Assembly (NCBI GenBank): GCA_946631855.1 | Contig: CAMPAL010000003.1 | Coordinates: 1 to 60,475 of the forward strand | Source of the DNA: an uncultured Treponema sp. | GTDB taxonomy: Bacteria > Spirochaetota > Spirochaetia > Treponematales > Treponemataceae | DNA length: 60,475 nt | Direction of reading: 5' to 3' | Made by a program: the position numbers and the translations under genes | In this document: piece after piece, positions 22,121 to 50,711 of the stretch | Position numbering within the stretch: position 1 is the stretch's first letter | Layout of the letters: every line of letters begins with the position of its first letter | Notes under the pieces: generated by a model | Databases searched by the model: none | What the model saw: only the letters and a program-made list of their open reading frames with translations | What the model was told of the DNA's origin: nothing

Positions 22121-22138
22121 TTTATTTTCTCCTTTAAA

Positions 22139-22164
22139 ACACCACGTTAGTGGTGCTGCATGCA
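22139..22164 (-). repeat. Leader hairpin shared with the acyl-CoA synthetase gene
   Basis: On the minus strand TGCATGCA is followed by CACCAC-TAAC-GTGGTG and then TTTTAAAGGAGAAA. The block GCAG-ACCACTAACGTGG-TTTTAAAGGAGAAA recurs with few changes at 25827-25860 ahead of an unrelated gene. Confidence 0.6.
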
Positions 22165-25706: not shown

Positions 25707-25726
25707 TAACTCATAAAATCAGCCGC

Positions 25727-25844
25727 AAACACGGTGTTTACAGGAGGCATGATAAAAAGTACTTCCATGTACTTTTTATCATAGGCAGATTTTGCCGATG
25801 GCAAAACTGTGATTTACTGCATCCATGCAGTACCACTAACGTGG
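25727..25844 (+). repeat. Leader with five tandem hairpins
   Basis: Successive inverted repeats: AAACAC-G-GTGTTT (25727-25739); a 14-bp perfect stem ATGATAAAAAGTAC with loop TTCCAT (25749-25782); CAGATTTTGCC/GGCAAAACTG with one bulge (25786-25809); TACTGCAT-CC-ATGCAGTA (25815-25832); CCAC-TAAC-GTGG (25833-25844). The ribosome site AAAGGAGA follows at once. No T-tract follows any stem, so these are not terminators. They could stabilise the mRNA or bind a regulator. Confidence 0.7.
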
Positions 25845-25863
25845 GGTTTTAAAGGAGAAACAA

Positions 25864-27633
25864 ATGTCCACTAAACAAAGAACTTTACCATGGGCTTATT
25901 TAGATGATTTTAGAGGAACTGATTTCAAGGGTGAATGGCCAACATTCCCAGAAATGCTCCGTATTCAGACAAAAAGAAATGGAGAAAGACCATTTTTCAC
26001 TGTTTTTGAAGGTCCTGAAGATGAAAAAAAGACTTTAACCTACAATGAAGTTTTGTCAAAAGTTCAAATACTGGGCAAATGGTTAATAGCCAGCGGAATT
26101 AAAAAAGGTGACAGAATTGCCGTAATGGGAAAAAACTCTCCTGAATGGGCAACAGTTTTCCATGCAGCATTTTTCGCCAGCGGTATAATTGTTCCAATTG
26201 ATAATGGACTTCACGAAACAGACGTAATCAACATTGTAAATACAGCAAAACCAAAAATTGTATTTTGTGATGATGATAAAGCTGCTTTCTACACCAAAAA
26301 TTTTAAGGACATCATTGTAAAATCCTTAAATCCAGATAAAGCAGAAGACTATGTCTACAATCTTAGACCAAACGGTGATGTAAAAGACAATGAACCTGTT
26401 CAGGAAACTGATACTGCAGCAATTCTCTTTACTTCTGGAACTACAGGAAGACCAAAAGGCGTTATGCTTAGTCACAGAAACCTGATTTCTGATGGTTTTA
26501 TTGCCATGACCAACCTTACAATTTATAACACAGATGTTTTTTACGCCCTTCTTCCAATCCACCACGCCTACACCATGCAGGCAGCCTTTATTGTTCCGGT
26601 AGAAACTGGTGCTGAAATTGTATTTGGAAAGAGTCTTGCGGTTTCAAAACTGATGAAAGAACTTAAAGAAGGTAAAATTTCCATCATGCTGGGAGTTCCA
26701 CTTCTTTATAACAAACTGCTTTTTGGAATTCGAAACGGAATTCGTTCAAAAGGACCACTTGTTTCTGGTCTGATTGCCTGCCTCCGTGGTATTTCTTTCT
26801 TCATAAAAAAACTGACTGGAAAAAATCTTGGAAAAGTCCTTTTCAAATCAGTTTTACAGCAGGCAAATATTTACACCCTTAGAGTTGCAATTTGCGGTGG
26901 TGGACCTTTGGCTTCCAGCGTATTCAAACAATACAATGCAATGGGTATAGATTTTATCCAGGGTTACGGTCTAACAGAAACATCCCCAATTATCACCCTT
27001 AATCCTCTGGAACACTTTAAAATTGAAAGTGTTGGACGTTCTTTTGCACCATACGAAGATATAAAAATTATCAATGGTGAAAAAACTCTTACAAACAAGG
27101 GCATTCAGAATGTTGGTGAAATTGTTATAAAAGGTCCTATGGTAATGCAGGGTTACTATCAGATGCCGGAAGAAACAAAAGCAATGTTTACTGAAGACGG
27201 ATATCTGAAAACTGGTGACTTAGGATGGATGGATAAAGAACTTTATGTAATGCTTTGTGGTCGTGCTAAGAACCTGATTGTTACAAGTGGTGGAAAAAAT
27301 GTTTATCCTGAAGAAATTGAAGATTCTTTCCAGTTGATTGATGACGTACAGCAGGTAACAGTCCGTGGATATCACCCTGATGATGATAAAACTTCAGAAC
27401 TGATTGAAGCTTTAATCTACCCAAGCGATTCACTCTATCAGAAACTTGGATGTGAAAGAAACAATCAGTTCGTTCAGGATGAAGTAATGGAAGAAATCAG
27501 GAAGGATGTTGCAAAGGTAAACAAAAACTTCCAGAGTTATTCTCAAATTACAAAAATTACTCTTTTGAAGGAGCCATTAGAAATGACCACTTCACAAAAA
27601 GTAAAACGAAATTTTATAGCTAAAACCTATTAA
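25864..27633 (+). CDS. Long-chain acyl-CoA synthetase / AMP-dependent ligase
   Basis: A 589-residue ANL-superfamily enzyme that activates a fatty acid with ATP and couples it to CoA. Motif A5-type P-loop LFTSGTTGRPKG, GYGLTETSP, TGDLGWMD and the C-terminal catalytic Lys in TTSQKVKRNF are all present, and length fits FadD-like enzymes. AAAGGAGAAAC supports the ATG. The exact chain-length preference cannot be read from sequence. The gene sits alone behind an elaborate hairpin leader, and its stop codon abuts the stop of the convergent gene with no bases between. Confidence 0.92.
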   Translation: MSTKQRTLPWAYLDDFRGTDFKGEWPTFPEMLRIQTKRNGERPFFTVFEGPEDEKKTLTYNEVLSKVQILGKWLIASGIKKGDRIAVMGKNSPEWATVFHAAFFASGIIVPIDNGLHETDVINIVNTAKPKIVFCDDDKAAFYTKNFKDIIVKSLNPDKAEDYVYNLRPNGDVKDNEPVQETDTAAILFTSGTTGRPKGVMLSHRNLISDGFIAMTNLTIYNTDVFYALLPIHHAYTMQAAFIVPVETGAEIVFGKSLAVSKLMKELKEGKISIMLGVPLLYNKLLFGIRNGIRSKGPLVSGLIACLRGISFFIKKLTGKNLGKVLFKSVLQQANIYTLRVAICGGGPLASSVFKQYNAMGIDFIQGYGLTETSPIITLNPLEHFKIESVGRSFAPYEDIKIINGEKTLTNKGIQNVGEIVIKGPMVMQGYYQMPEETKAMFTEDGYLKTGDLGWMDKELYVMLCGRAKNLIVTSGGKNVYPEEIEDSFQLIDDVQQVTVRGYHPDDDKTSELIEALIYPSDSLYQKLGCERNNQFVQDEVMEEIRKDVAKVNKNFQSYSQITKITLLKEPLEMTTSQKVKRNFIAKTY

Positions 27634-45864: not shown

Positions 45865-45894
45865 AAGAGGGGTCTGTCCCCTCTTTTTTTTTTT
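45865..45894 (+). terminator. cysK terminator formed by a dispersed 13-mer
   Basis: AAGAGGGG-TCTGT-CCCCTCTT (8-bp stem, 5-nt loop) followed by eleven T. The core 45869-45881 is an exact GGGGTCTGTCCCC, so here the element acts as an intrinsic terminator. Confidence 0.9.
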
Positions 45895-47016: not shown

Positions 47017-47052
47017 AAAAAAGGAATTCCTACTTTTGGAATTCCTTTTTTT
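47017..47052 (+). terminator. trpX terminator
   Basis: AAAAAAGGAATTCC, loop TACTTTT, GGAATTCCTTTTTTT; a strong intrinsic terminator 35 bp after trpX. Confidence 0.85.
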
Positions 47053-47056
47053 GTTT

Positions 47057-47080
47057 TATAATGTTTCTAAAAATAGAAAC
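47057..47080 (+). promoter_or_regulatory. trpY promoter (-10) and perfect trp-type operator
   Basis: TATAAT (47057-47062) directly abuts the perfect dyad GTTTCTA-AAAA-TAGAAAC (47063-47080). The -35 would lie inside the trpX terminator and is weak. This gives the permease/ATPase pair its own regulated start. Confidence 0.7.
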
Positions 47081-47098
47081 ACTAGGATATTAAAAAAA

Positions 47099-50645: not shown

Positions 50646-50711
50646 GTTTCTATTGACAGTAACAAAATGTTAATGTTACTATAAGTAGTAACAGTTACTA
50701 TTTATAGTAAC
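50646..50711 (+). promoter_or_regulatory. trpE promoter with three tandem trp-type operators
   Basis: -35 TTGACA (50653-50658), -10 TACTAT (50677-50682; 18-bp spacer). Box 1 GTTTCTATTGACAGTAAC (50646-50663) over the -35; box 2 GTTACTATAAGTAGTAAC (50675-50692, perfect) over the -10; box 3 GTTACTATTTATAGTAAC (50694-50711, perfect) over the start site. The spacing recalls TrpR operators in length (18 bp) but the sequence differs from the enterobacterial CTAG core. Confidence 0.85.

Follow-up and report, generated by a model that had tools for sequence, protein, structure and literature searches.

The leader of an acyl-CoA synthetase-like gene in an uncultured Treponema sp. carries several hairpins in a row. 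The question is whether this array belongs to the gene as its own leader or is one instance of something more widely dispersed. The window, which is the whole stretch of DNA that was analysed (60,475 nucleotides), represents contig 3 of a 2.65-Mb assembly that is 77% complete. The preliminary description of this DNA listed five tandem inverted repeats at positions 25727-25860, and all five were confirmed at these places, as was the perfect 14-bp stem of one of them.

The array upstream of the acyl-CoA synthetase gene

The features of the array and its surroundings are listed below (SD, Shine-Dalgarno sequence; H2 to H5, hairpins of the element; R1, covariance model of the element).

22126-22162, minus strand: putative 3'-end relic of the element (part of H4, H5 and SD), forming the SD of an ABC exporter gene; R1 score 32 bits
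25677-25706, plus strand: promoter-like site TTCAAA-18-TATAAT, matching 10 of 12 consensus positions, upstream of the element
25723-25746, plus strand: putative older 3'-end relic, CCGCAAACACGGTGTTTACAGGAG, an H5-like hairpin and GGAG; the present copy adjoins this GGAG
25727-25739, plus strand: first hairpin, AAACA-cgg-TGTTT
25747-25857, plus strand: full copy of the proposed SD-inserting hairpin element (family A), ~111 bp; boundaries from left flanks and empty sites
25749-25782, plus strand: H2, perfect 14-bp stem; loop TTCCAT with UCC core
25785-25810, plus strand: H3, GCAG-A-TTTTGCC gat GGCAAAA-CTGT; inner TTTTGCC-gat-GGCAAAA at 25790-25806
25815-25832, plus strand: H4, TACTGCAT cc ATGCAGTA; loop with UCC core
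25833-25844, plus strand: H5, CCAC-TAAC-GTGG; UAAC tetraloop
25852-25857, plus strand: element-borne SD of the acyl-CoA synthetase gene, AAGGAG
25864-27633, plus strand: host gene, acyl-CoA synthetase-like open reading frame (ORF) of 589 amino acids, with orthologues throughout the genus

The predicted RNA fold of the array has an energy of -50.6 kcal/mol, compared with a mean of -32.3 for shuffled sequences (z -5.6; none of 200 shuffles as low). R1 matches positions 25742-25858 at 126.8 bits, and no gathering-level match to Rfam was found anywhere in the window. The array had been described as free of terminator T-tracts; two simple terminator-like matches were flagged, neither of which is convincing for this leader. 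The promoter-like site places the element upstream of the gene in what would be its 5' UTR, with the qualification that matches of this quality have a chance mean of 1.5 in the region. In L004, the nearest relative examined (88% protein identity), the promoter region is similar and TATAAT stands in the same context though the element is absent; the leader there has no hairpins and a plain TTTAGGAG SD, and the same genome (G025) carries the element elsewhere. None of the 29 other acyl-CoA synthetase orthologue leaders compared contains the element.

For the first hairpin a better reading is CCGCAAACACGGTGTTTACAGGAG, which makes it a degraded repeat of the last hairpin together with its SD. The same H5 and SD block occurs to the left of the copy at other loci, for example L042, L043, L052, L101 and L122. 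The final block of the array was said to recur upstream of the ABC exporter gene at 22139-22164. It does recur, at 22126-22162 on the minus strand and 5' of the gene, with 95% identity over 37 bp; the sequence quoted for it was short by a few bases (actual GCAGTACCACTAACGTGGGGTTTTAAAGGAGAAA). A 24-base pattern of this block is found at just these two places in the 2.65-Mb assembly, even with three mismatches allowed. A very similar ABC gene in another genome (G006) bears a full copy (L056). Judged by sequence, the ABC-exporter block and the first hairpin are both remnants of 3' ends of the same element, each with H5 and an SD. Two generations of the element seem to be preserved in the acyl-CoA synthetase leader, an earlier copy of which just the end survives and, adjoining it, a more recent one, in the order that we infer. 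The genome as a whole contains two full copies, relics, and one degenerate copy before exoA (L338, G000:C30:1257-1374), in which the stem sequences are entirely different and the UCC loops are retained.

A dispersed structure at ribosome-binding sites

When the leader was used as the query in a DNA search of ~59 congeneric genomes, 28 of them proved to have close copies at other places; most matches ran from about window base 25742 to about 25857. With the covariance model the element was found in 96 of 146 congeneric genomes, and in 46 of the 64 of good quality. Copies per genome often number 15-25 or more, and several genomes have at least 25 scored candidates. In a wider draw beyond the genus, two other genera of the family gave strong copies, and all matches farther out were weak. 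In a scan of GTDB genomes the matched records named by organism were Treponema or Spirochaetes, with T. berlinense, T. porcinum and T. ruminis among them. Dispersal across so many genomes and genes led us to reject the idea of a leader private to the acyl-CoA synthetase gene. Thus the modular build, the repetition, the shared block and the unusual character that had been described are borne out, while the gene-specific leader is replaced by an array dispersed before unrelated genes. The preliminary description had also raised the case of hairpins absent in close relatives and unique here; they are absent at this site in relatives and far from unique.

The copies resemble each other more within a genome (mean identity 0.86) than between genomes (0.71), with a mean of 0.93 and values up to 0.99 in T. 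berlinense. The nearest copy lies in the same genome in 52% of cases, compared with 4% after shuffling; gene conversion may explain part of this similarity. A phage or plasmid origin was rejected, as no match was found in viral contigs (one exact pattern searched) or in phage and plasmid records (blastn).

The secondary structure is strongly conserved. In an alignment of 26 copies, 18 of 28 pairs show compensatory change. Among 102 copies 97.4% of the pair cells form and in 22 of the 28 pairs both partners change (no shuffle out of 500 reached this level), although this alignment was fitted to the covariance model, which favours the pairing figures somewhat. The UAAC tetraloop of H5 is present in 85 of the 102 copies, and the UCC core in the H2 and H4 loops of nearly all. 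It is important to note that G-U is no commoner than A-C in the stems (15 and 22, respectively, among ~2,800 pair cells). Since a selected RNA should tolerate G-U, we read the stems as probable features of the DNA, their pairing as RNA being under little selection once the element has inserted.

The position of the element is also very regular. All 104 copies are in the sense orientation with respect to the gene, and in 90 of them an ORF starts within 14 nt of the element end, typically at 5-7 nt. The right end, AAGGAG, serves as the SD of the gene at normal spacing. Of the remaining copies some stand first in a tandem array, others are followed by another hairpin element that ends in an SD, one is at a contig end, and four (L045, L098, L113 and L135) are exceptions located upstream of genes and off the annotated SD. 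At L135 the element is followed by a short leader-peptide-like ORF, MILYFEKLVRENFRNGLMRRCCLC, ending MRRCCLC, upstream of a PLP enzyme of Cys/Met metabolism. Among the copies with context none was seen inside a coding sequence, although 54 of the 76 AGGAG sites in the window are coding. Of the 22 non-coding sites 18 are SDs anyway, which fits SD specificity and GGAG targeting plus selection alike.

Empty sites are available for comparison at two loci. The filled HTH gene in G129 reads TTACAAGGAG, then the element ending in AAAGGAG, then ATCAACATG, while the empty gene reads TTACAAGGAGGGCTCAACATG in G003 and similarly in G104. A VapC-type gene is filled in G112 and empty in G066 (TTAGGAGGAAAAAATG) and G048. 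At both loci the empty site is an ordinary SD, and the filled site consists of GGAG (GGGG in G112), the element, AAGGAG and the same start codon. Only these two comparisons are clean; at hisC and exoA the flanks show further differences besides the element. The hisC locus in G025:C6 (L179) and in G111:C2/C127 (L163, L164) has 100% DNA identity over the compared stretch in assemblies classed as different species; contamination or a very recent transfer might explain this. The left flanks of different loci have (A)GGAG alone in common, and the element sits just 3' of this motif, so that its borders form a direct GGAG repeat with the hairpins internal. Because the left and right hexamers differ within many loci (for example L036, L047, L082, L107 and L149), the right SD is taken as element sequence, and a target-site duplication is ruled out.

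A second, unrelated hairpin repeat of ~152 bp, family B, with the form GYAAGATAAAAAC...TTTTTATRGGAG, is present in 58 of the 146 genomes. Of its 30 loci (L307-L336) 27 immediately precede a start codon, the left border in most being GGAG and the right one TTTTTATRGGAG; it also occurs at L117:878-1029 (minus strand) and follows family A at L117, L061 and others. The same borders in families A and B suggest a shared insertion process.

The order of hairpins H2, H3 and H4 and the UCC loops are also found in dispersed triplets (L366-L394), which are matched by R1 (weakly) and by a second model, R2, and which number 17-98 per genome. There are 17-29 in genomes that we take to be of T. denticola type, and 85 and 98 in two genomes of another genus. 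Unlike family A, the triplets have no H5 and no SD end, and the inspected copies are away from start codons. From the triplet the SD-carrying form seems to have been derived by specialisation, a direction that we infer. Several triplets lie just 3' of genes ending in GFRLAWRP-like sequences, which resemble the variable proteins of diversity-generating retroelements.

Possible explanations of the element

Taken together, these data make it probable that the array is one copy of a non-coding, non-autonomous mobile element of ~111-126 bp, dispersed in gut and rumen Treponema, which inserts into SDs and restores them. The element would insert immediately 3' of GGAG in the SD of the gene, in one orientation, and since it ends in its own AAGGAG the gene would keep a ribosome-binding site at normal spacing. 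It could apparently enter important genes in this way without loss of the translation signal. Insertions in coding regions would be purged, and the inserted leader would be roughly neutral for the host gene. The strict Watson-Crick stems, the single orientation and the GGAG at both borders suggest that the movement depends on a hairpin-recognising process acting on one DNA strand, with the enzyme supplied in trans.

The strong conserved structure with its covariation could also be that of a cis-regulatory RNA, a riboswitch or protein-binding leader of a regulon, in which the UCC loops shut the SD or a global regulator is bound. Both UCC loop cores are complementary to GGAG, and as no Rfam family covers the element this would be a new family. 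The antisense strand of H2 reads ACANGGANGU, which we take to resemble the CsrA consensus; however, this motif is on the strand opposite to the mRNA of the gene. Riboswitches and other cis-regulatory RNA families are expected to have a coherent set of target genes, but the 95 downstream genes match 108 Pfam families, none with more than two members, and are functionally unrelated. Over 79 loci the SD has the same predicted accessibility whether or not the element is present (p 0.79; folding model without pseudoknots), so that sequestration or exposure of the SD by the element was rejected. Together with the lack of a preference for G-U, unlike in selected RNAs, and with the empty sites, this makes a regulatory RNA improbable; a regulon has no support, while effects on single genes are possible. 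A somewhat less remote alternative, still unlikely, is a selected leader that stabilises or insulates the mRNA, its hairpins protecting the 5' UTR and standardising the SD, and which is retained because it benefits highly expressed genes. Copies do precede central genes, among them those of phosphoglycerate kinase, triosephosphate isomerase and H+-pyrophosphatase, and some family B insertions are common to species at the same gene (L328 in G080, L329 in G135). On the other hand, there is no signal of G-U tolerance, an effect on SD accessibility is not predicted, and the other acyl-CoA synthetase leaders compared do without the element; a stabilising role could still hold for individual copies after insertion. 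An ancient leader passed on vertically, kept uniform by gene conversion and not mobile at present, might account for the species-specific similarity as concerted evolution, and the left-end and right-end H5 and SD blocks are alike at several loci (L101, L122, L141). It is very improbable in view of the empty sites with an intact SD in relatives and of the different element subtypes at the same fabF-like gene in different species (L100 and L116).

If the element is mobile, its mobiliser has to be considered. In several respects the element resembles a palindrome of REP/RAYT type or IS200/IS605 origin, moved by a Y1 HUH transposase with GGAG as its cleavage site: hairpins lie close to both borders, the border motif is short and invariant, the orientation is single, there is no target-site duplication, and the UCC loops complement GGAG as a guide might. 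However, of 24 genomes 17 lack Y1_Tnp (PF01797); G042 (98% complete, 16 copies), G048 and G004 are in this group. The Y1 loci that are present have other ends and no convincing R1 match, and tags and location are unlike those of surveyed REPs (PMC3733652). We therefore regard this origin as doubtful, about as much so as the regulatory RNA. Reverse transcriptase (RVT_1) and PDDEXK_2 nuclease were likewise rejected as mobilisers, the presence or absence of these two and of Y1 being uncorrelated with copy number (24 genomes each, some incomplete); G042 has none of the three. The IS200 copies in T. berlinense (G018) and G129 were rejected as a source, as their ends differ, and so was the Y1 gene of the genome studied here, which is associated with another repeat type. 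The window at 45865-45885 and locus L186 (G000:C6) contain AAGAGGGGTCTGTCCCCTCTT, resembling the GGGGACAGACC/GGTCTGTCCCC that flank this RAYT-like gene; it is a probable REP-type repeat of another kind. Near-perfect palindromes at 47017-47081 and 50674-50711 of the window have a 14-bp stem with GGAATTCC and adjacent TGTTACTATAAGTAGTAACA and GTTACTATTTATAGTAAC. Among 122 left ends of the element no ORF-bearing, autonomous version was found.

A more specific form of the proposed mobile element is that the DNA finds ribosome-binding sites by base pairing. The UCC of the loops is complementary to the GGA of the border motif GGAG, and the loops could serve as anti-SD guides for GGAG at the target and at the end of the element itself, with a mobiliser of whatever type and a process common to at least two unrelated hairpin families. 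No covariation of loop and target was seen, and this form is offered as a speculation with a small chance of being correct.

Comparison with known mobile elements

Small mobile repeats usually lie between genes. If the proposed explanation is true, this is a rare transposable element that both targets the ribosome-binding site and ends in one. Such a family would be specialised on a short signal that nearly every host gene carries and would persist by supplying a replacement, and tens of genes in each genome would have had their 5' leaders rewritten. The carriers include the named isolates T. berlinense, T. porcinum and T. ruminis, which can be studied in culture. No description of an SD-inserting repeat was found among the open-licence papers searched.

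REP/BIME sequences with their RAYT (TnpA-REP) are similar in being short dispersed palindromes with lineage-specific amplification and a short invariant tag by the hairpin. The tagged REPs surveyed have GTAG and CGTC tags and sites mainly downstream of coding regions (PMC3733652). In contrast, the tag of the present element, GGAG, is the SD of the gene, its copies lie in sense at start codons, neither GTAG nor CGTC is present at its ends, and many carrier genomes have no Y1 partner. The IS200/IS605 family (for example IS608) is alike on paper: it has hairpins close to either end, inserts 3' of a short motif that does not vary, keeps one orientation and may be guided by base pairing. However, no TnpA or TnpB is located on or near the element, and the complement is in the loops and not at the feet of the stems. 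As for integron attC sites, the RYYYAAC / GTTRRRY pair was not recognised by eye in the element consensus, and the copies are dispersed over contigs, not arrayed. A review of prokaryotic MITEs makes no use of the terms Shine, ribosome or start codon (PMC10969869). The element is small, non-coding and dispersed as MITEs are, with no autonomous relative found. It shares with the bacterial MITEs and similar small repeats (Correia/NEMIS, ERIC, BOX, RUP) the small, non-autonomous and highly structured character and transcription with neighbouring genes, and with BOX the modular build. It differs from classical MITEs in having neither terminal inverted repeats nor a target-site duplication, and from all of these in that it would insert at, and restore, a ribosome-binding site.
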